Of a stretch of 39,979 nt of DNA, positions 21,237-32,272 are shown piece after piece. Numbering within the stretch: position 1 is the stretch's first letter; every line of letters starts with the position of its first letter. Both the position numbers and the translations under genes were made by a program. Under the pieces are notes generated by a model. That model was not told where the DNA came from and ran no database searches. It saw only the letters and a program-made list of their open reading frames with translations. Source of the stretch: Chitinophaga pinensis. GTDB lineage: Bacteria > Bacteroidota > Bacteroidia > UBA4408. Location: positions 1-39,979 of the forward strand of contig CAMBZU010000025.1 of the NCBI GenBank assembly GCA_945872355.1, in the 5' to 3' direction.

Positions 21237-22466
21237 ATGCGTAATATAATATTCCTTATTAGTTGTTTTTTTATCAGCAATTTGCATGGTCAAAATAGTG
21301 ATTGCAACACTGCTCTATTGATTTCGGATACCATATATCAACAAATAATACCACCGTTTGGATATGGCAAAGTTAAAGAGTTAGTTCAACCCAAGAAGTA
21401 TGATTTCACTTCTTTTAAAAGTGAAAAAAACAGTGAGTGGTTCATTTTGAAGCAAACTGAAAAAGTAAGTTTGACGCTGAGTATCATTCCAATTAATGTT
21501 AATGATGATTATGACTTCATGATTTTTGATGCCTCAGAAATTGGATTTTGTGATTCTATAAAAGTAGCCAACAAAATCAAACCTTTACGATCTAATATTT
21601 CAAGAAACGATAAAGCTGTTAATAGTATCACTGGATTAAGAACAAGTAACGATACTTCATTTGTAGGTATAGGTTTAGGTAATTCTTTTTGTAGGCCAAT
21701 TATTATGGAAGCCGGTAAATCATATATATTGGTAATTTGCTGCGATCGCAATCCACAAAAAGGTTTTACATTGAAATTAAATTATGAAAAAGTAAAATCC
21801 AATGATGCTGCTACAGATAGTCTTTTGGCTAGGATAGAAGCAGAGTCCAAAAAAAGTAGAAATAAATTGCAGTTCTTTTTTGCAGATAAAGAAACTAAGC
21901 AAAAAATTGAAGCAGATGCTGTTGTTAGAACCAATTTAATTGATACGGGATATGTAATAAGTGGCTTTTCTGCATATAACATTGCCCTTAAATCTCAAAC
22001 AGATTTAATGGCAGTTGCCTCAGGGTTTATGATTGAAAAGAGAAATTATTCATTAACTGAAGATTCTCTTTCAATTATTGATACTATATTTTTAAGAAAG
22101 ATAACTGTTGATGCATATTTAGAAATAATTCCTTTTTATTTTGAAGGTAATACCAATAAATTATTGCCAAAATCAAAGCCTGCACTTTTATCACTTTTGC
22201 TCTTTTTACAGAAAAATCCAAATGTGCAAATTGAGATTCAGGGGCATGCAAATGGCCCTAAAAGAAAAAATGTAAGAGAGTTTAGAAAACTCAGTGAGAA
22301 TAGGGCAGAGGCTATTAAAAAGTATCTAACTTTTGAAGGGATTAGTAAAAAAAGGTTGGCAATTGAAGGTTATGGAAACGCTATGATGCTTTTTCCTGAT
22401 CCACAAACTGAAGAAGAGAGTGAATTAAATAGGAGGGTTGAAATTAAAATAATTTCTATTGAATAA
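21237..22466 (+). CDS. Secreted OmpA-domain protein with an N-terminal beta-domain
   Basis: The product is 409 residues. A signal peptide (MRNIIFLISCFFISNLHG, about 18 residues) leads to a cysteine-containing beta-rich domain (about 20-185). That domain resembles pre-peptidase or carbohydrate-binding sandwich folds (SEWFILKQTEKVSLTLSI, DYDFMIFDAS, SYILVICCDRN). A middle linker follows, with a YVISGFSAYNIAL repeat-like segment. The OmpA-like domain spans about 295-409: IIPFYFEGNTNKLLPKSKPAL, VQIEIQGHANGPKR, LSENRAEAIKKYL, RLAIEGYGNAM and ELNRRVEIKII. The family binds peptidoglycan. Here the usual TDxxG is replaced by HANGPKR, so binding of diaminopimelate may be altered. It is followed by topA after 134 bases. 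Confidence 0.8.
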   Translation: MRNIIFLISCFFISNLHGQNSDCNTALLISDTIYQQIIPPFGYGKVKELVQPKKYDFTSFKSEKNSEWFILKQTEKVSLTLSIIPINVNDDYDFMIFDASEIGFCDSIKVANKIKPLRSNISRNDKAVNSITGLRTSNDTSFVGIGLGNSFCRPIIMEAGKSYILVICCDRNPQKGFTLKLNYEKVKSNDAATDSLLARIEAESKKSRNKLQFFFADKETKQKIEADAVVRTNLIDTGYVISGFSAYNIALKSQTDLMAVASGFMIEKRNYSLTEDSLSIIDTIFLRKITVDAYLEIIPFYFEGNTNKLLPKSKPALLSLLLFLQKNPNVQIEIQGHANGPKRKNVREFRKLSENRAEAIKKYLTFEGISKKRLAIEGYGNAMMLFPDPQTEEESELNRRVEIKIISIE

Positions 22467-22600
22467 TTTTATCTTAAATTGTAGTGATTTATTTAAGTGT
22501 AAACAGTTGTTTTGAATTTTTTGTAAAACTCTCTTTAGTTGCAAATTAAATAAAATCCTTTTCTTTGCCTTTTTGATAACTAAAATCTTAATACACAAAC

Positions 22601-25042
22601 ATGAGTAAAAATTTAGTGATTGTTGAGTCTCCTGCAAAGGCCAAAACTATAGAAGGATTTTTAGGAAGTGACTATATCGTTAAGTCGAGTTTTGGTCACG
22701 TGCGAGATTTGGTTAAGAAAGGACTAGGCGTAGATGTAAACAATAAGTTTTTGCCAAATTACGAAGTGTCAGAAGATAAAATAAAAGTTGTTAATGAGCT
22801 AAAGAAAATTGCAAGTAAAGCAGAAGTAGTTTGGCTAGCAACTGATGAGGACCGTGAAGGAGAAGCTATTTCATGGCATTTATATGAGACTTTGGGTTTA
22901 GATAAAAGTAACACAAAAAGAATAGTGTTTCATGAGATTACCCCAAGTGCAATTAAAAATGCAATCAACAACCCGCGTACAATTGATTTAAATTTAGTAG
23001 ATGCACAGCAGGCAAGAAGAATACTAGATCGTTTGGTTGGTTTTGAATTATCTCCCGTATTGTGGAAAAAAGTAAAACCTTCTCTTTCTGCTGGTCGTGT
23101 GCAATCTGTTGCTGTTAGATTAATTGTTGAAAGAGAAAGAGAAGTTACTAATTTCGTAACCGAGAACTATTATAGGATAACAGCCATTTTCACCAACCAA
23201 AAAGGTGATTCATTTAAAGCTGATATCGCAAGAAGGGTTCCAACTAAGGAAGAAGCTCAAAGAATTATTGAAACATGTTTAGGAGCGCAATTCACTGTGG
23301 CTGATCTTCAAACATCGCCAGCAAAGAAAACACCTGCAGCGCCTTTTACTACATCTACGCTTCAACAAGAAGCAAGTAGAAAATTAGGCTTTTCTGTGGC
23401 GCAAACAATGAGTATTGCACAACGATTATATGAAAGTGGAAAAATCACATATATGAGAACTGATTCTGTTAATTTATCAGAAACAGCACTTATTGCATCA
23501 AAGGAAGAAATACTTAAATCCTTCGGCAAGGAATATCATCACGAGCGACAATTTAAAACAAAATCTAAAAGTGCTCAAGAAGCGCATGAGGCCATAAGAC
23601 CAACTTATTTTAATGTACATAAATTAGAGGGCGAAAATCAAGAAAAAAAACTCTACGAACTCATTTGGAAAAGAACTGTTGCGTCACAAATGAGTGATGC
23701 CCAATTAGAAAAGACCAATGTTCAGATCAAAAATAACAATAACAATGAAAACTTTGTTGCTAATGGTGAAGTAATGAAGTTTGATGGATTCTTAAAATTA
23801 TACATTGAGTCCACAGATGATGAAAATACTGAAGAACAAGAAGGGATGTTACCTGCCATGAAAATCACTGACAATCTCAAGTATAATGAAATTAAAGCTA
23901 CTCAAAAGTTTACCTATCATCCACCAAGATATACTGAGGCTGCTTTGGTTAAAAAGTTAGAAGAACTGGGTATTGGACGTCCATCAACCTATGCACCAAC
24001 TATTTCTACTGTGCAAAAAAGAGGATATGTGGTAAAAGAAGATAGAGACGGTGTAAAAAGAAATTTCGATGTGATCGTTTTAAAAGAAACTGAAATTTCT
24101 AATACTACTGAAACTATGAATACGGGTGCTGAGCGCTCAAAATTATTCCCTACCGATATTGGAGTTGTTGTAACAGATTTTCTTACTGCTAATTTTGATG
24201 AAATTATGGATTATAATTTCACAGCTTTGGTGGAAAAGGAATTTGATGAAATTGCTGAAGGCAATCTTAAATGGCAAAAAATGCTCGAAAGTTTTTACAG
24301 ACCATTTCATATTCATGTAGAAAACACAGTTGAACATTCAGACAGAGCTTCAGGTGAAAGAAACTTAGGGGTTGACCCAGTGTCTGGCAAAAATGTTTTC
24401 GCGCGTATTGGTCGCTTTGGGCCTGTTATTCAAATTGGGGATGGTGATGCCGAAGAAAAGCCAAAGTTTGCAAGTTTGAATAGTAATCAACGCATAGAAA
24501 GTATTACTTTAGAAGATGCAATGGAGCTTTTTAAACTGCCACGTGTAGTTGGTCTATTTGAAACAAAAGAAATGATTGTTGCTGCAGGCAGATTTGGTCC
24601 TTATGTAAGACATGAAGGTGCATTTTACTCGCTAGCAAAAACTGATGAGCCCATGAGTATTACAGCAGAGAGAGCCATCGAACTTATTGAAGCAAAAAGA
24701 AAAAAAGACAGTGAACGTGTTATCAATCATTTTAAAGATCAAGATATTCAAGTTTTAAATGGTCGCTGGGGGCCATATATTGCTGCAAATGATAAAAATT
24801 TTAAAATTCCAAAAGGAAGCAAGGAAGCAAAAGAATTGAGCTTGGCAGATTGTTTAGATATCATCAATTCTAGCGAAGGTACTCCTCAAAGAAATGCTGC
24901 ATTTAAGAAAAAAGCTGCGGTTGCTGCACCAAAGAAGACAGCAAAGAAAACTGCCGCTAAGAAAACAACGAGTAAAACAACAGCAAAAAAGCCAGCACCT
25001 AAAAAAGTAGCTGCCAAAAAAATACCAACTTCTAAAAAATAG
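22601..25042 (+). CDS. topA: DNA topoisomerase I
   Basis: The product is 813 residues. A Toprim domain at the N-terminus (NLVIVESPAKAKTIEGFLG, then ATDEDREGEAISWHL) is followed by the type IA core with the catalytic tyrosine Tyr284 in GKITYMRTDSVNLSE and the LEELGIGRPSTYAPTISTV motif. The C-terminus lacks zinc-finger cysteines. It has instead three repeats built on GRFGP or GRWGP (about residues 600-750). A strongly basic tail rich in Ala, Lys, Pro and Thr (about 770-813) looks like histone H1. The enzyme relaxes negative supercoils. It is separated by only 5 bases from the arginase-fold gene and lies just upstream of the T9SS cluster. Confidence 0.95.
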   Translation: MSKNLVIVESPAKAKTIEGFLGSDYIVKSSFGHVRDLVKKGLGVDVNNKFLPNYEVSEDKIKVVNELKKIASKAEVVWLATDEDREGEAISWHLYETLGLDKSNTKRIVFHEITPSAIKNAINNPRTIDLNLVDAQQARRILDRLVGFELSPVLWKKVKPSLSAGRVQSVAVRLIVEREREVTNFVTENYYRITAIFTNQKGDSFKADIARRVPTKEEAQRIIETCLGAQFTVADLQTSPAKKTPAAPFTTSTLQQEASRKLGFSVAQTMSIAQRLYESGKITYMRTDSVNLSETALIASKEEILKSFGKEYHHERQFKTKSKSAQEAHEAIRPTYFNVHKLEGENQEKKLYELIWKRTVASQMSDAQLEKTNVQIKNNNNNENFVANGEVMKFDGFLKLYIESTDDENTEEQEGMLPAMKITDNLKYNEIKATQKFTYHPPRYTEAALVKKLEELGIGRPSTYAPTISTVQKRGYVVKEDRDGVKRNFDVIVLKETEISNTTETMNTGAERSKLFPTDIGVVVTDFLTANFDEIMDYNFTALVEKEFDEIAEGNLKWQKMLESFYRPFHIHVENTVEHSDRASGERNLGVDPVSGKNVFARIGRFGPVIQIGDGDAEEKPKFASLNSNQRIESITLEDAMELFKLPRVVGLFETKEMIVAAGRFGPYVRHEGAFYSLAKTDEPMSITAERAIELIEAKRKKDSERVINHFKDQDIQVLNGRWGPYIAANDKNFKIPKGSKEAKELSLADCLDIINSSEGTPQRNAAFKKKAAVAAPKKTAKKTAAKKTTSKTTAKKPAPKKVAAKKIPTSKK

Positions 25043-25047
25043 TAGTT

Positions 25048-26220
25048 TTGGATATTTCTGTTTTTTTTAACCCTGTAAATCTCTCTTTTATTAGTGATGG
25101 CAATGTTTATCAGCCTAATCAGCTAGGACACACCATTAAAAAGTTTGAAGAAAAAGATAATTTTCCTTCTGTAGAAGAGTGCCGAATAGCAATAATTGGT
25201 GTGAAAGAAGGTAGAGGGGCCCTCGCTAACGAGTCATGTGCGGATGCTCCAGATTTTGTGCGAAAACATTTATACAAACTTTGGGGACTGGGAAATTTAT
25301 TTCAAATTGTTGATATGGGCAACATTGAGCCAGGTCATAGCATTGAGGATACCTATTACGCATTGTCTTCAACTGTTGAATATCTTGTTAAGTTTAATAT
25401 TCTGCCTTTGATTATTGGTGGTGGTCAAGATTTAACCTTTGCCAATTACAGAGGATACCAACATTTGGAACAATTGGTAAATTTGGTTTCGGTAGATGCT
25501 AATTTTAATTTGGGCTTTATTGATGATGAATTGGATGCCCAAACTTACCTGAGTAAAATTATACTTTACCAACCCAATTATTTATTCAATTACAGTAACA
25601 TAGGATATCAAACATATTTTGCAGATCCGGCTGCGGTTGAACTTATGCAAAAGTTATTTTTTGATAGCTATCGTTTAGGCACGGTTAGAGCAAATTTAGA
25701 AGAAACTGAGCCAATAGTTAGAAATGCCGACATCGTATCTTTTGATATTTCTGCTGTGCGCAAGGCTGATGCTCCGGGGAATTTCAATGCCGGTCCCAAT
25801 GGCTTTTCAGGTGAAGAGTTTTGCCAAATAGCGCGTTATGCAGGTTTGAGCGATAAAGTATCTTCAGTTGGTTTTTATGAGTACAATCCCATTTTTGATG
25901 ATAGAGAAAGTACAGCCAACCTAATAGCACAGGCAATATGGTGTTTTATTGAAGGCGTCAGTCAACGTAAAAATGACATTCCAACAAGTTTAAATCCTAA
26001 TTTTTTGAAATATCGGGTATTTATTAGTGAAAGTAAACACGAAATTGTATTCTACAAAAGCAATAAAAGTGATCGTTGGTGGATGGAAGTGCCTTACCCC
26101 AACAACAAATCAAAGTATGAACGTCATCATTTAGTGCCTTGTTCCTATGCCGACTATCAAATAGCTTGTAATGAAGGTATGCCAGATAGATGGTGGCAAA
26201 CCTATCAGAAACTTATATAG
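25048..26220 (+). CDS. Arginase/formimidoylglutamase-fold protein with degenerate metal site
   Basis: The product is 390 residues. The TTG start at 25048, 5 bases after the topA stop, is chosen because the next in-frame ATG would remove about 90 conserved residues. The ureohydrolase fold is recognisable: CRIAIIGVKEGRGALANESCADAPDFVR, LPLIIGGGQDLTFANY, LVSVDANFNLG, and SFDISAVRKADAPGN. Active family members read GG(D/G)HS, DAHxD and DxD at these places to bind two Mn ions. Here they are GGGQD (Gln127), DANFN (Asn152, Asn154) and DIS (Ser235). Only Asp150 and Asp233 remain, so classical hydrolysis of arginine or formiminoglutamate is unlikely. A C-terminal extension of about 80 residues (SDRWWMEVPYP) is also present. 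I infer a structural or regulatory role. Confidence 0.8.
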   Translation: MDISVFFNPVNLSFISDGNVYQPNQLGHTIKKFEEKDNFPSVEECRIAIIGVKEGRGALANESCADAPDFVRKHLYKLWGLGNLFQIVDMGNIEPGHSIEDTYYALSSTVEYLVKFNILPLIIGGGQDLTFANYRGYQHLEQLVNLVSVDANFNLGFIDDELDAQTYLSKIILYQPNYLFNYSNIGYQTYFADPAAVELMQKLFFDSYRLGTVRANLEETEPIVRNADIVSFDISAVRKADAPGNFNAGPNGFSGEEFCQIARYAGLSDKVSSVGFYEYNPIFDDRESTANLIAQAIWCFIEGVSQRKNDIPTSLNPNFLKYRVFISESKHEIVFYKSNKSDRWWMEVPYPNNKSKYERHHLVPCSYADYQIACNEGMPDRWWQTYQKLI

Positions 26221-26384
26221 TGCAAAATAACATTAATTTACTAAATATTAACAACTATTTAGCTGCATGAACATAATATTGTTAAAAAGATTTGCAATTT
26301 CCGAAATTGATTCTTTTCTTTACCGACTGAATTTAAAAAATAGTACATATCAAAGCAAATAAAAAAGTAACCAAATCAATACTT

Positions 26385-27320
26385 ATGAAGAAAATAATTA
26401 CTTCTGTAATACTTGCCATTGGCGGTTTTCAAGCTTTCGCTCAACAAGACCCACAGTTCAGTCAACAGATGTTTACACGGTTGTCAACTAATGCAGGTTT
26501 TGCCGGCGCTAGTGAGTATTTGTGTGCAACTGTAATGAATCGTCAGCAATGGGTTGGTTTTGATGGCGCACCTAAATCTACATTGGTTACTATTGATGCC
26601 CCAATAAAAATTGGAGAGCATACAATTGGTGTTGGTGCTACTATCATTGCAGATAAATTAGGTTTTGAAAGCACTTTTTCTGGGAAACTAGCAGCAGCAT
26701 ATCGTAAAAATATTGGACCTGGTAATTTAGGCATCGGTTTAGATTTTGGAATTTTAAACAAAGCAGTAGGCGGTAATTTTATTTCAATTCAACAAGGTGA
26801 TAATTTAATACCACAAGCTTCAGTTAGTGATAAGGCTATGGATTTAGGTTTCGGATTGCATTATCATATTCCAGGAAAATTATATGCAGGAATTTCTGGT
26901 GTACATTTATTAGCACCAAAGTTAGAAGGAACCAATTTGCAATATTTAATGGCTCGTCATTGGTATGTTACAGCTGGTTACGAATATGCCATCAACGAAA
27001 TGTTAACTGTACGTCCTAATTTTTTATTTAAAACTGATGGTGCATCTTCTCAGTTAGATGTTAATGCAAATGTATTATATAACAATATGGTTTGGGCTGG
27101 TTTATCATTTCGCTTACAAGATGCTATAGTGCCAATGTTAGGCTACCAAGGTACTTTGGCAAATGGCAAAGGAAACTACAGAATTGGATATGCTTATGAT
27201 TTAACTATATCTAATATAAAGCAATACAGCAGTGGAACACATGAAATTATGTTAGGCTTTTGTTACAACATAACACCTCCAAAGAAAATCACAAGGTATA
27301 AAAACCCTAGATTTTTATAA
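26385..27320 (+). CDS. porP: PorP/SprF-family outer-membrane protein of T9SS
   Basis: The product is 311 residues. A signal peptide (MKKIITSVILAIGGFQAFA, cut before QQDPQFSQ) leads to the family hallmark QDPQFSQQMFTRLSTNAGFAG. Repeated amphipathic beta-strands typical of a membrane barrel follow, for example GIGLDFGILNKAVG, LYAGISGVHLLAP, VRPNFLFKT, GNYRIGYAYDLTI and HEIMLGFCYNI. PorP/SprF proteins sit in the outer membrane and are needed for secretion or surface attachment of T9SS substrates. It directly precedes gldK (174 bases), which is the arrangement of the porphyromonad porP-K-L-M-N operon. No clear terminator separates it from gldK. Confidence 0.92.
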   Translation: MKKIITSVILAIGGFQAFAQQDPQFSQQMFTRLSTNAGFAGASEYLCATVMNRQQWVGFDGAPKSTLVTIDAPIKIGEHTIGVGATIIADKLGFESTFSGKLAAAYRKNIGPGNLGIGLDFGILNKAVGGNFISIQQGDNLIPQASVSDKAMDLGFGLHYHIPGKLYAGISGVHLLAPKLEGTNLQYLMARHWYVTAGYEYAINEMLTVRPNFLFKTDGASSQLDVNANVLYNNMVWAGLSFRLQDAIVPMLGYQGTLANGKGNYRIGYAYDLTISNIKQYSSGTHEIMLGFCYNITPPKKITRYKNPRFL

Positions 27321-27494
27321 AATTTACTATTTTTGTAACTTATAATTTAACTCCTTCGTAAAGGGCACTCACACACTTTTCTTTTTAAAACAGAAAATCT
27401 AAATTCTACAAAATGAAGCAAAATTACTTAAAGCGTAACATTTCAAAAAATGCAAGGCTGTTTCATTAATTGTACTCAATTTAATTTAAAAAAA

Positions 27495-28802
27495 ATGAAG
27501 AAGTTTATTTATCTAATAGCGATTATCGCTTTATTTTTTACCTCATGTTCAAATGAAGGTAATGGTCAACTTTTGGGCGTTCAAAATCGACAAGGATGGT
27601 ACGATTTAGATCCATTTGGTATGCTGTATATCAAAATGGGAAGTTTTACTATGGGTCCTGGAGATCAAGATGTGCCATTTGCACAAACAACCCAAGCCAA
27701 AACAGTTTCTGTGCAGGCCTTCTACATGGATGAGACAGAAATTACCAATAACGAATATCGCCAGTTTGTATATTGGGTTAGAGATTCTATTGCTCGAAGA
27801 ACATTAGGTGAAGCGGGTAATGATAATTTTTTGGTTTCACAAGACCAATATGGTGAAGATATTACGCCAGGCCCTCAAATTAATTGGGAAGAGAAGTTGA
27901 AATATTCATCACCTGAGGCACGCGAAGGTTTGAATGATATGTATCTTCCAGAAAATGAAAGATTCTACAGAAGAAAAGAAATTGATACTAGAAAGTTAAT
28001 GTTTGAATACTATTGGATTGATTTGCGCGAAGCTGCAAGAAGATCAAACCGTGAGCAAGGATTAACCGATAGGTCTGTGTTTATAAAAAAAGATGTGATT
28101 AATGTATATCCTGACACTTTAGCTTGGATACATGATTTTACATATTCTTTTAATGAGCCAATGACAAATATGTATTTCTGGCATCCTGCTTATGATGAAT
28201 ATCCGGTAGTTGGTGTAACTTGGAAACAAGCGCGCGCATTCTGTATTTGGAGAACGCAGTTGATGAATAGCTTCTTAGTAAATGTTGATGTGCCTATGGT
28301 GCAGGACTTTAGGTTGCCAACTGAAAGTGAATGGGAGTATGCAGCAAGAGGAGGTCTAAGCCATGCTCCGTACCCTTGGGGTGGTCCTTACATCAGAAAT
28401 CAAAGAGGTTGCTTCTTAGCAAATTTTAAGCCAATGAGAGGGAACTACACTGATGATGGTGGATTTCATACAGTTCGTGTAGCTACTTACAATCCAAATA
28501 ATTATGGTTTGTACGAAATGGCTGGTAATGTTGCTGAGTGGACAAATAATGCTTATGATGAAGCAGCTTATAATTTTTCACATGACTTAAATATGGATTA
28601 CCAATATGAAGCCAATGATAACGACTTGCCTGCTTTAAAAAGAAAGGTAATACGCGGGGGCTCTTGGAAAGATATTTCTTACTATACGCAAGTTGGAACT
28701 AGAACATATGAATATCAAGATACTGCTAAATGCTATATCGGATTCCGCTGTGTGATGTCTTACTTAGGCAGAGGTAAAGGAATGGATGTATCAGCAAACT
28801 AA
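27495..28802 (+). CDS. gldK: T9SS ring lipoprotein GldK (PorK)
   Basis: The ATG at 27495 is chosen (435 residues) because it starts a clean lipoprotein signal, MKKFIYLIAIIALFFTSC, with Cys18 as the lipid site. The longer frame from 27450 would bury this signal behind 15 unlikely residues. The rest is a sulfatase-modifying-factor-like fold: GSFTMGPGDQDVPF, YMDETEITNNEYRQFVYW, FRLPTESEWEYAARGG, YPWGG, YEMAGNVAEWTNNAY and VIRGGSWKD with FRCVMSY at the end. GldK forms a periplasmic ring with GldN under the outer membrane. It heads gldK-gldL-gldM-gldN with gaps of 73, 37 and 21 bases. Confidence 0.95.
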   Translation: MKKFIYLIAIIALFFTSCSNEGNGQLLGVQNRQGWYDLDPFGMLYIKMGSFTMGPGDQDVPFAQTTQAKTVSVQAFYMDETEITNNEYRQFVYWVRDSIARRTLGEAGNDNFLVSQDQYGEDITPGPQINWEEKLKYSSPEAREGLNDMYLPENERFYRRKEIDTRKLMFEYYWIDLREAARRSNREQGLTDRSVFIKKDVINVYPDTLAWIHDFTYSFNEPMTNMYFWHPAYDEYPVVGVTWKQARAFCIWRTQLMNSFLVNVDVPMVQDFRLPTESEWEYAARGGLSHAPYPWGGPYIRNQRGCFLANFKPMRGNYTDDGGFHTVRVATYNPNNYGLYEMAGNVAEWTNNAYDEAAYNFSHDLNMDYQYEANDNDLPALKRKVIRGGSWKDISYYTQVGTRTYEYQDTAKCYIGFRCVMSYLGRGKGMDVSAN

Positions 28803-28875
28803 TTTAAATTAAACAATTCATAAATAAACAATTAAACCAAATCAATCTTATCAAACTTAAATTCTTCTAAAAACT

Positions 28876-29694
28876 ATGGGAATCATTCAATCACTTCAGA
28901 CAAAAAAAGGTAAAACTTTCATGGGTTATCTTTACGGATGGGGAGCATCTATTGTAATCGTTGGAGCAATGTTTAAAATTCAGCATTGGCCTGGTGCAGG
29001 TCCGATGCTAGTTGCAGGTTTAACAATTGAAGCAATTATCTTTTTTTTCTCGGCTTTTGAGCCAATTCATGAAGAAACAGATTGGAGTTTAGTATATCCA
29101 GAATTGCGTGGTATGCATGATGATGAAGATGGAGGACATGGTCATAAAGAAGTGAAAAAAGGTTCGAAAGATCCTCTTGCTCAAGAATTGGATAAAATGT
29201 TAGAAGAAGCCAAGATTGGTCCAGAATTGTTAGAAAGTTTGGGTGCAGGAATGCGTAGTTTAAGTGATCAAGCTGGTAAAATGTCAAATATTGCTGATGC
29301 TTCTGTTGCTACTTCATCTTTCGTAAAAGAAGTTGAAGGTGCAACTCAAAACATGAGTGAGCTTAGTAAAAGTTATGTAAAGGCAACAGCTTCATTAGCT
29401 GACTTATCAAATACAAATATTGATGGGCAAGCATATGGTGAGCAATTACAGCAGGTTTCTAAAAATTTAAGTGCATTAAATGCAGTTTACGAATTGCAAT
29501 TGCAAGGTTCAAGCGAACATTTAAAGTCTGCCAATAAGATGTATGAAGGTATTGATTCTTTATACAGAAACTTGCAGGATTCTGTTCAAGACACTAATAG
29601 ATATAAAGAGGAAATTGGTAAGTTAGCAACTAACTTGGGAGCTTTGAATACCGTATATGGTAACATGCTTTCTGCAATGAATTTTAATAAATAA
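28876..29694 (+). CDS. gldL: T9SS/gliding motor protein GldL (PorL)
   Basis: The product is 272 residues. Two membrane helices near the N-terminus (about 17-33 and 43-62) enclose the conserved FKIQHWPGAGPML loop. Glu52 in GLTIEAIIFFF sits inside the second helix. A buried helix-2 glutamate is known in this family to be essential for proton use. The remaining 200 residues are cytoplasmic and largely helical, with Ser/Asn-rich coiled-coil repeats (SLSDQAGKMSNIADAS, SALNAVYELQLQGSSEHL). GldL and GldM form the proton-driven rotary motor that powers T9SS export and gliding. The gene is directly followed by gldM. Confidence 0.95.
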   Translation: MGIIQSLQTKKGKTFMGYLYGWGASIVIVGAMFKIQHWPGAGPMLVAGLTIEAIIFFFSAFEPIHEETDWSLVYPELRGMHDDEDGGHGHKEVKKGSKDPLAQELDKMLEEAKIGPELLESLGAGMRSLSDQAGKMSNIADASVATSSFVKEVEGATQNMSELSKSYVKATASLADLSNTNIDGQAYGEQLQQVSKNLSALNAVYELQLQGSSEHLKSANKMYEGIDSLYRNLQDSVQDTNRYKEEIGKLATNLGALNTVYGNMLSAMNFNK

Positions 29695-29731
29695 CATTAA
29701 TAATTAGCAACTAATTTAAATTTAAAATACT

Positions 29732-31399
29732 ATGTCATCAGGCGGTACCCCCAGACAAAAAATGATTGGTATGATGTACTTGGTACTCACGGCATTGCTT
29801 GCAATGAACGTTTCCAAGTCCATACTAGAAGCATTCGTAATTGTAAATGAGGGTTTGGAAAGAACCAATGAAAACTTTGATAAAAAGAACGCAAAATTAT
29901 ACTCTGATTTTAAAGGTGCATTGGATAAAGATCCAAACAAAACTAAACCCTATTACGATAGGGCTCAAACAGCAAAAAAACTTGCTAAAGAGCTCAATGA
30001 ATATATTGAAAAGATAAAGAAACATGTAATTGAAAAAACCGATAAAAAGGAAAAAGCAGTTGCAGATACAATACATCTTAAATACGTTGATGCAAAAGAC
30101 AATTATGACGAACCTACTAATTTATTGATTGGTAGTGAGCCTGCTTCTCCAGCTAAAGGCGAATTAACAGCACTTGATCTCAAAAATAGAGTAGGAAAGT
30201 ACAAAGAAGAAATGATTAAACTTTTTGATGATAAAAAGTTGTTTTTGCCTGCCGATAAAAAAGATATGGAAGGTAAATTAAAATCTGGATTAGATTTACC
30301 TGATGGTGTTGAGAATGGTGTAAAAGCTGGATGGGAGGTTGTAAATTTCTTCCACTTGCCATTAGCAGCTGTTATCGTAAATTTAACTGCGTTACAATCT
30401 CAGGTTACTAATGCAGAAGTTGATGTTGTTGGTAAATTATTATCTGCTGTTTCTGCAACAGATTTTAAATTTGATAGATTGCAAGCCAAAGTTATTGCGC
30501 CTTCAAGCGTACTAATTCAGGGTGATGAGTATAAAGCTGATGTATTATTAGTAGCATCAAATAGTACTAGTAATCCGAAGATTTTATTATGTGCAGTTGA
30601 CACATCTAAAAATGATGGTGATACTGATCCAAGGTTGAACAAAAACGATCCAGGCAAAGAAATTCCTGTTTCTGGTGGTGTTGGAAAATACAAGACTGGA
30701 ACAAGTGCTACCGGAGAGCAAAAATGGAGTGGTGTGATTCAAGTTGAAAAACCAGGAGGTGGATCTAATTATTATCCATTTGCTGCAAGTTACATTGTAA
30801 CTCCTCCAGCTTTGGTTGTATCGGCTACAAAAATGAACGTACTTTACATCGGTGTTCCTAATCCTGTAGATATTTCGGTACCAGGATATGCGCCGGAGTT
30901 AGTAACCCCATCAGTTAGTGCAGGTAATAGCATATCTCCTGATCCAACAAAGAAAGGCTCTTATGTTTTGAATTGTACAAAAGGCACTAAAGAAGCAAGT
31001 GTTTCAGTTTCTGTAAAACAAGGAAGCACTAACAAAGCAATGCAGGGCGCTGTTAAATTCCGTGTGAAGAATTTACCAGATCCAATTGCTAAAGTTGGTG
31101 GTAAAGAATCAGGTGTAATTACTAAAGCTTTGCTTTTGGCATCTGGTGGTGTTGCAGCTGTAATGAAGGACTTTGATTTTGATTTAAGAGTTACTGTTGC
31201 TTCTTACACAGTTGCATTAAACGTTGGTGGCGAATTTAAAACAGCTTCTGCCACAGGCTATAATTTTACTGGAGAAATAACTACTTTGCTTCAAAAGGTT
31301 AAAAACAACGGAAGGGTAATTTTTGAAGACATTAAAGTGAGAATGCCTGACGGTACAGTTAGAACTTTACCTACACTTACACTAAAAGTTAACGGTTAA
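29732..31399 (+). CDS. gldM: T9SS/gliding motor protein GldM (PorM)
   Basis: The product is 555 residues, somewhat longer than the roughly 515 of the flavobacterial protein. The N-terminus SGGTPRQKMIGMMYLVLTALLAMNVSKSILEAF has the single membrane helix and the conserved arginine just before it (Arg8). The large periplasmic part begins helical (about 35-250, with EYIEKIKKHVIEKTDKKEK), then turns into a chain of beta-domains (about 250-555) that reach across the periplasm. Those domains include VIAPSSVLIQGDEYKADV, NVLYIGVPNPVDIS and GGKESGVITKALL. GldM couples the GldL motor in the inner membrane to the GldK-GldN ring. Many proline and glycine turns mark the domain borders. It is in the gldKLMN operon, 37 bases after gldL. 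Confidence 0.95.
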   Translation: MSSGGTPRQKMIGMMYLVLTALLAMNVSKSILEAFVIVNEGLERTNENFDKKNAKLYSDFKGALDKDPNKTKPYYDRAQTAKKLAKELNEYIEKIKKHVIEKTDKKEKAVADTIHLKYVDAKDNYDEPTNLLIGSEPASPAKGELTALDLKNRVGKYKEEMIKLFDDKKLFLPADKKDMEGKLKSGLDLPDGVENGVKAGWEVVNFFHLPLAAVIVNLTALQSQVTNAEVDVVGKLLSAVSATDFKFDRLQAKVIAPSSVLIQGDEYKADVLLVASNSTSNPKILLCAVDTSKNDGDTDPRLNKNDPGKEIPVSGGVGKYKTGTSATGEQKWSGVIQVEKPGGGSNYYPFAASYIVTPPALVVSATKMNVLYIGVPNPVDISVPGYAPELVTPSVSAGNSISPDPTKKGSYVLNCTKGTKEASVSVSVKQGSTNKAMQGAVKFRVKNLPDPIAKVGGKESGVITKALLLASGGVAAVMKDFDFDLRVTVASYTVALNVGGEFKTASATGYNFTGEITTLLQKVKNNGRVIFEDIKVRMPDGTVRTLPTLTLKVNG

Positions 31400-31420
31400 T
31401 ACAAATCAAAACTACTTGAT

Positions 31421-32272
31421 ATGAAAGCCTTGTTCAATAAAACTATTTTAACTGCTATAGTTAGTTTAAATTTAGCAGTTGTATCTTCAAATGTAAATGC
31501 CCAGTCTAATATTTTAGATGGTGTTTATGTGAAAGAACATACCATTGAGCGTAGGGTAATTCCATACACTTATTTGAGAGAAGCTGATGTTATGTGGAGT
31601 AAGAGAGTATGGCGTATTATTGATTTACGTGAAAAGTTAAATCATGATATGTATTTTCCAATTGATGTGATTGCCGGTAGAAGAAGTTTGATGCAAGTTA
31701 TTTGGGATGGCGTAACAAAGGATGGGTCAATTACTGCCTACGGCGATGAAAATGATGGTGATTTTACCACCCAAATGTCAAAAACGGACTTAGACAATAA
31801 ATATAACACTTGGGATACTACTCAAATTGAAGATCCAGGTACTGGTGAAATGGTAGAGAAAATTACCCAAAAGGTTTTTATTCCTTCGGAAGTAAAGCAA
31901 CTGAGAGTGAAGGAAGATTGGTTTTTTGATCGTCAACGCTCAGTGATGGATGTTAGGATTATTGGTATTGCTCCAATTCGTTTTTATAACAAAAATGGAG
32001 AAGAAAGGTTTGAAACTATGTTTTGGATCTATTATCCTGAGGCAAGATTTTCTTTTGTAAGTGCTGAAGTATATAATAAAGGAAATGATGCTGAACGTAG
32101 AACCTATGAAGATATCTTCTGGAAAAGACGTTTTAGCAGTTATATCTATAAAGAAACTAATGTATACAATAGAAGAATTAATACTTACATGAGTGGTTTA
32201 GATGCCCTTTTAGAAGCAGAAAAAATCAAAGAAGACATCTTTAATATGGAACACGATTTGTGGGAGTATTAA
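31421..32272 (+). CDS. gldN: T9SS ring protein GldN (PorN)
   Basis: The product is 283 residues with a signal peptide (about 1-27, ending SSNVNAQ). Family-typical stretches are HTIERRVIPYTYLREADVMW, KRVWRIIDLREKLNHDMYFP, LRVKEDWFFDRQRSVMDVRI and EARFSFVSAEVYNKGNDA. It also shares with known GldN proteins a segment near the end (RTYEDIFWKRRFSSYIYKE). GldN associates with the lipoprotein GldK in the periplasmic ring. It is the last gene of the operon, 21 bases after gldM. It is closed by a strong terminator about 19 bases past its stop. Confidence 0.95.
   Translation: MKALFNKTILTAIVSLNLAVVSSNVNAQSNILDGVYVKEHTIERRVIPYTYLREADVMWSKRVWRIIDLREKLNHDMYFPIDVIAGRRSLMQVIWDGVTKDGSITAYGDENDGDFTTQMSKTDLDNKYNTWDTTQIEDPGTGEMVEKITQKVFIPSEVKQLRVKEDWFFDRQRSVMDVRIIGIAPIRFYNKNGEERFETMFWIYYPEARFSFVSAEVYNKGNDAERRTYEDIFWKRRFSSYIYKETNVYNRRINTYMSGLDALLEAEKIKEDIFNMEHDLWEY

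Follow-up and report, generated by a model that had tools for sequence, protein, structure and literature searches.

Introduction

Hydrolysis by arginase and formiminoglutamase needs both metals of the active site. In Trypanosoma brucei, an arginase-like protein is said to have this fold and to have evolved with no binuclear manganese centre, in which it would resemble the protein studied here; it is eukaryotic and has no known gene context. In metformin hydrolase, according to the portion of the source consulted (PMC11271267), MetCb is a metal-free subunit of the arginase family that acts as the partner of MetCa and has been retained as a binder. Judged from fold matches and from that portion of PMC11271267, MetCb/MfmB (8x3g, 8ryi, 8snf) resembles the present protein in its arginase fold, in the loss of most metal ligands and in a C-terminal extension. 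In contrast to MetCb, which the same portion places beside the catalytic MetCa, the gene analyzed here has topA and porP-gldKLMN as neighbours. The formimidoylglutamase HutG (TIGR01227; 1xfk, 3m1r, 4mxr) shares the fold over about 280 residues, with Z scores of 32.8 to 38.0, and the motifs GG-H/Q-D, D-A-x-F-D and D-x-x are in register. Unlike HutG, the present protein does not reach the curated cut-off (81 bits where 229 are required), and its family has lost metal site B in 206 of 206 members, carries an additional C-terminal domain and stands apart from the canonical clade. An arginase-fold gene beside topA or gldK is not described in the literature searched, which included few subscription papers and no preprints, and the parts of two T9SS papers that were searched for the term do not mention arginase. 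Arginase-fold pseudoenzymes are already known; the class-wide family adjacent to topA and gld is a new variant. Here, the gene was analyzed in a stretch of 39,979 nucleotides, termed the window, and in related genomes.

Identity and flanks of the gene

The gene and its neighbours are located as follows.

22601..25042, + strand: topA (DNA topoisomerase I), lying upstream with a gap of 5 bases (profile matches)
25048..26220, + strand: arginase-fold protein of 390 aa whose metal site is degenerate, TTG start (ORF call, Pfam, alignment, AlphaFold model)
26385..27320, + strand: porP/sprF family gene for an outer membrane protein, lying next downstream (profile matches)
27450..28802, + strand: gldK (profile matches)
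28876..29694, + strand: gldL (profile matches)
29732..31399, + strand: gldM (profile matches)
31421..32272, + strand: gldN (profile matches)

By ORF coordinates, the stop of topA at 25042 falls 5 bases before the gene and the start of porP at 26385 falls 164 bases after it, exactly the distances given in the preliminary description. Pfam Arginase (PF00491) matches the frame at 1.3e-17 and 64.6 bits, where the gathering score is 22; this places the protein in the superfamily. The best family profile is that of formimidoylglutamase (TIGR01227, NCBIfam), at 81 bits against a curated cut-off of 229.15 bits, so that the protein is not assigned to the HutG equivalog. The best solved structure by sequence is the formimidoylglutamase of V. 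cholerae (1xfk, E 2.8e-8). The protein is probably cytosolic, since its Kyte-Doolittle hydropathy, taken over 19 residues, nowhere exceeds 1.35. PADLOC models gave no match to the gene at E up to 1, and a link to defence is unsupported. The Bacteroidota promoter pattern TTTG-N17-21-TAnnTTTG has no match on the + strand in 26221-26384, between the gene and porP. Over the whole window, the pattern occurs 8 times against 3.5 expected, with 7 of the matches on the minus strand, and 3 of 100 shuffles reach 8. An OmpA-domain gene lies upstream of topA at 21237-22466, an arrangement seen otherwise only in L091 among the first-draw loci.

The source genome (G000) carries two further arginase-family genes, C47:26165-27070 (L233) and C51:20923-21789 (L234), both on contigs other than that of the window and both with all six ligands (HDHDDD). 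Either could supply the canonical ureohydrolase, encoded elsewhere, with which a pseudo-subunit of the MetCb type would form a hetero-oligomer, and metal-free MetCb does activate MetCa in the portion of PMC11271267 consulted. Such an arrangement is nevertheless very improbable here. A second Pfam Arginase match is absent among the window ORFs in 21237-32272, which leaves the gene with no adjacent catalytic partner of the MetCb type, and no such partner came up beside it in the neighbourhoods that were scanned for topA and gld genes. Many genomes of the class have a single match to the window protein, in a search that can miss distant arginases, and the single-copy, class-wide spread follows no single ureohydrolase among those tested.

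Fold and constraint

The AlphaFold2 model of the window protein, built with 76 homologues, has a mean pLDDT of 94.2. When the model was compared with the PDB, the nearest solved fold was the formiminoglutamase of T. cruzi (4mxr), with a Z score of 38.0 and an rmsd of 1.9 Å over 276 residues, which identifies an arginase fold; other ureohydrolases follow it among the best matches. All fold matches listed end by about residue 312, and the C-terminal 80 residues therefore lie outside the arginase fold. The closest relative found was L091, at 84% identity. Its dN relative to the window is 0.111 for the arginase-fold gene and 0.112 for topA; no dN/dS value is derived, since synonymous sites are saturated in both genes. 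The reading frame is free of stops. With an open frame, a confident fold and a dN like that of topA, the ORF can be put down neither to chance nor to decay. The proposal that the fold is well kept and that the gene is selected for something other than classical hydrolysis is supported.

That the gene is decaying and stays where it is because of its operon is extremely improbable. The arginase core is strongly eroded in L053-L056 (277 to 351 aa), and seven T9SS-bearing families have no detectable copy, as decay would predict. Set against this are the residues that are invariant throughout the class, the full length of nearly all members listed, the similarity of dN to that of topA, and the survival of the gene where the topA-gld order is broken.

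Metal site of the window protein and its family

Three segments contain the positions of the canonical ligands.

25426..25428, + strand: codon of Gln127, a ligand His in canonical ureohydrolases (sequence, alignment)
25495..25509, + strand: codons 150-154, D-A-N-F-N against canonical D-A-H-F-D, with Asp150 kept and His152 and Asp154 lost (sequence, alignment)
25744..25752, + strand: codons 233-235, D-I-S against canonical D-x-D, with Asp233 kept and Asp235 lost (sequence, alignment)

On alignment to 1xfk, with which the family alignments agree, the six ligand positions read Q127, D150, N152, N154, D233 and S235. Because both kinds of alignment place these residues there, only Asp150 and Asp233 remain, two ligands of six, the same residues that had been picked out by eye beforehand. 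Replacement ligands at other residues were not seen in the structure or family alignments. For the family, 234 homologue matches were reduced to 217 by collapsing identical last 250 residues. A cut-off of 110 bits then gave 206 members, the window gene included, and left 11 sequences below it; 10 of these are canonical paralogues, and the other is L055, which is strongly eroded and was excluded from the ligand counts. We take site A to be positions 127, 150, 154 and 233, and site B to be positions 150, 152, 233 and 235, after the human arginase scheme.

No member of the 206 carries all six ligands, and the full ligand set of the HutG binuclear centre is thus absent from them. Site B is intact in none of the aligned members, and the four ligands of site A are intact in 26. 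Four ligands are kept in 35 members, three in 145, two in 15, one in 10 and none in a single member; these tallies are counts rather than frequencies of events, because sampling was uneven and the sequences share ancestry. Gln127 is found in 158 of 206. At position 152, Lys or Arg occurs in 103 and His in 11, and Asp235 is found in 7. The acidic positions are kept much more widely, with Asp150 in 194, Asp154 in 181 and Asp233 in 195. Glu at 278 is present in 143 of 206, and a Glu also stands at that motif position in 1xfk. In the same alignment, the 10 arginase-family paralogues from class genomes, used as a control, read HDHDDD in 7 cases and HDHDCD in 3. The suggestion that a basic residue at 152 substitutes for metal B once His127 is lost was rejected, as residues 152 and 127 do not covary (84 of 158 Gln127-bearing against 13 of 27 His127-bearing sequences; Fisher p 0.68). 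The term "metal-less variant" used in the preliminary description is too strong for the family, because 26 of 206 members retain the four ligands of site A.

Classical activity is very unlikely, because hydrolysis in the superfamily needs both metals and site B is lost in every aligned member. An altered enzyme would be a different matter, one that uses a single metal at site A, or no metal, as a hydrolase or lyase on an amidine such as a guanidino or formimino compound. The members with a complete site A, the wide retention of Asp150, Asp154 and Asp233, and the Glu shared with the 1xfk motif would all suit such chemistry, and the formiminoglutamase of T. cruzi, with Asn at the first His ligand position, is still a manganese enzyme. 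We regard this reading as improbable given the universal loss of site B, the predominance of Gln127, the two remaining ligands of the window protein, and a formimidoylglutamase profile score far under the cut-off.

C-terminal domain and family-only residues

Beyond the arginase fold, the protein carries a domain specific to the family.

25972..26217, + strand: family-specific C-terminal domain, residues 309-390, predicted to contain four strands and two helices (alignment, prediction)

Within this domain F335, W344 and C365 are invariant, and W345, Y370 and P379 are nearly so. Family-only residues were defined as those shared by 93% or more of the family but not conserved in the 10 canonical paralogues. 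They include Y76, P176, F205, R209, G211, E221, P222, R225, C259, A265, G266, W298 and G303 in the core, and F335, W344, W345, C365, Y370, A373 and P379 in the C-terminal domain. A profile of the domain (A3) matches 62 of 73 class genomes and none of the 223 other genomes of the phylum sample. At E<=0.01 it also matches 10 of 25 hand-picked genomes, once each, one of the matches being a chance-like frame of 32 residues. Predicted in isolation, the domain has a pLDDT of 81.5. Foldseek returned no match for it at E<=0.001, and the best row on a second look at the Foldseek-ranked chains had a Z score of 3.8. A profile search of the PDB gave nothing below E 0.1, and Pfam holds no family for the C-terminal domain of the window protein. 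WGR chains of PARP are among the weak Foldseek and fold rows, with Z scores of 2.4 to 2.7. Identity with the nucleic-acid-binding WGR domain (PF05406) is not supported, as there is no Pfam WGR match and the hhalign probability is 0.5%, in a comparison that covered three WGR sequences.

The domain was undetected in seven genomes that have the arginase-fold gene and are of the f4 family or the f6 type (G012, G095, G162, G210, G265, G277 and G281), and is therefore not indispensable everywhere. In the f4 family (L048-L052), the core is kept, the proteins measure 356 to 358 aa, the ligand positions read NSISND, and no C-terminal domain was detected. In the f6 family (L053-L055; G064, G158 and G162), the arginase core is strongly eroded and the proteins measure 277 to 335 aa; even so, G064 and G158 still give a match to the domain. 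These three eroded copies have a convergent gldK at a distance of about 1.35 kb.

Distribution and phylogeny

When 296 phylum genomes were searched with the window protein, 152 gave a match at E<=1e-3, a set in which true relatives and canonical paralogues are mixed. The family profile A1, built from 34 sequences, matches 365 of 395 class genomes at E<=1e-8 and 357 at E<=1e-40. The matches weaker than 1e-40 fall in eight genomes (G349, G378, G380, G037, G452, G064, G158 and G162), and those in G349, G378 and G380 could be canonical paralogues. The class is taken to be Bacteroidia from its named relatives (Bacteroidia, Bacteroidales, Flavobacteriales, Sphingobacteriaceae), which are the best 80 of 588 confirmed. 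In a tree of 73 rows, the family forms a clade separate from 6 canonical formimidoylglutamase rows with an SH-aLRT of 100; the tree was made by a quick method and its backbone is weak, with 11 of 70 inner branches starred and 30 open.

Gene order around topA and gld

The neighbourhood sample consisted of 71 loci from 67 families, with one locus or more per family code, and several of the contigs are short. topA lies directly upstream in 37 of 67 families, porP or gldK lies downstream on the same strand in 36, and both are found in 34. The gene is thus encoded in a gld/por cluster in the window and in those 36 families. All 29 first-draw genomes of f5 have topA, the arginase-fold gene and gldK in that order, without porP; the Tenacibaculum loci L142 and L158 resemble them. 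The preliminary description had pointed to arginase-like genes near gld clusters in other Bacteroidota, and the neighbourhood survey supports this, in 34 of 67 families and in all of these f5 genomes. Two or three gldN-like genes stand in a row after gldM in L096, L123, L175, L171, L189, L207, L205 and L197. On the tree, linkage changes 11 times for topA and 11 times for porP/gldK. Because the linkage is scattered over the tree, the order topA-gene-porP-gldKLMN is probably ancestral and was lost many times, as far as the weak backbone allows.

Intergenic gaps were surveyed in the 203 loci that score >=150 and remain after sequences were collapsed on their last 200 residues. These gaps are estimates, because starts were chosen by rule. 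From topA to the arginase-fold gene, the median gap is 17 nt over 108 loci, 56 of which have 20 nt or less. From the gene to porP/gldK, the median is 142.5 nt over 86 loci, and none has 20 nt or less. By its spacing, the gene therefore belongs to the topA unit and not to that of porP/gldK, and this suggests that it may be co-transcribed with topA. For 156 loci, the sequence extends at least 1.5 kb in either direction; both neighbours are present in 59 of these, topA only in 19, porP/gldK only in 2, and neither in 76.

Co-occurrence with T9SS

GldK was found in 369 of 395 class genomes. The arginase-fold gene is present in 352 and absent from 17 of the GldK-positive genomes; the GldK-negative genomes, most of which are incomplete, divide into 13 with the gene and 13 without it. 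SprA was then searched in the 43 genomes without GldK or without the gene. Fifteen near-complete genomes from seven families have both GldK and SprA and no arginase-fold gene (G311, G388, G443, G469, G492, G190, G249, G570, G584, G589, G600, G607, G624, G632 and G639). In G311 (L249), porP-gldKLMN is intact without the gene. Seven near-complete genomes lack both GldK and SprA. The gene is kept in G347 and G516, and in G347 (L250) it stands directly behind topA; it is absent from G230, G238, G416, G317 and G533. The latter two are reduced genomes of 0.5 and 1.2 Mb. G230, G238 and G416 belong to family f12, in which the gene is absent from 6 of 6 sampled members, with GldK or without it. The gene is thus not one that is present with T9SS and absent without it. 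There is no support for strict dependence on T9SS in either direction, and single draft-genome cases may fall.

These results bear on a dedicated accessory of T9SS or gliding, a cytosolic protein that would bind the GldL/GldM motor or control expression of the gld operon. In its favour are the porP or gldK gene downstream on the same strand in more than half of the families and in all f5 genomes of the first draw, and a linkage that is scattered over the tree and looks ancestral. The eroded copies L053-L055 still lie near gldK, and the named control Bacteroides ihuae has neither GldK nor a Pfam Arginase match. We nevertheless consider such an accessory unlikely. It is opposed by the fifteen T9SS genomes without the gene, among them G311 with its intact cluster, by the two of seven marker-free genomes that keep it, by the 76 loci with neither neighbour, and by a gap to porP/gldK that is never 20 nt or less. 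The T9SS-linked role put forward in the preliminary description is not supported as stated.

Proposed role

The reading that we prefer, and consider rather likely, is that the protein is dead as a binuclear hydrolase and retained as a cytosolic binding or scaffold protein, the gene being a single-copy, class-wide family descended from a formiminoglutamase-like ureohydrolase; this grading applies to the reading as a whole. The gene is probably kept for a binding job because the metal site has been dismantled and the gene is yet retained in most of the class genomes sampled. In all 206 aligned members site B is gone, while the fold, the arginase core and three acidic first-shell residues are kept. 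The family has gained an extra C-terminal domain and a set of invariant residues that are absent from the canonical paralogues, and the gene persists through the class whether or not its neighbours adjoin it. The protein may then work without hydrolysis, as a soluble cytosolic binder or scaffold, its old pocket serving a ligand or acting as a structural core, and its Trp-rich C-terminal domain contacting a partner. It would be made together with TopA. MetCb is the closest precedent for a role of this kind, though its catalytic partner is encoded by the adjacent gene. Gene order points to candidate partners in TopA or DNA-linked housekeeping, and in the cytosolic face of the GldLM motor. It should be noted that several observations count against a binder. 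Asp150, Asp154, Asp233 and Glu278 are widely kept, as would fit single-metal or other chemistry, some members hold all four site-A ligands, and the C-terminal domain is undetected in seven genomes.

A bolder version makes the family a class-defining pseudoenzyme of Bacteroidia, a ligand-sensing or scaffolding cytosolic hub, co-made with topoisomerase I, that would stand between DNA topology and the T9SS/gliding motor. This is speculative, and we hold it to be doubtful. The Trp-rich C-terminal domain is of a kind not seen elsewhere among the genomes searched.

Significance

Pseudoenzymes of the arginase family are otherwise represented by scattered cases, such as MetCb and the trypanosome protein. 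Here, a pseudoenzyme appears near-universal and single-copy across a whole bacterial class, and of the secretion and gliding clusters in these bacteria its gene adjoins the one that is best studied. In all or almost all cases the family seems to be annotated through the formimidoylglutamase profile, though the metal site rules that function out. Such genes should therefore not be read as histidine-degradation enzymes.
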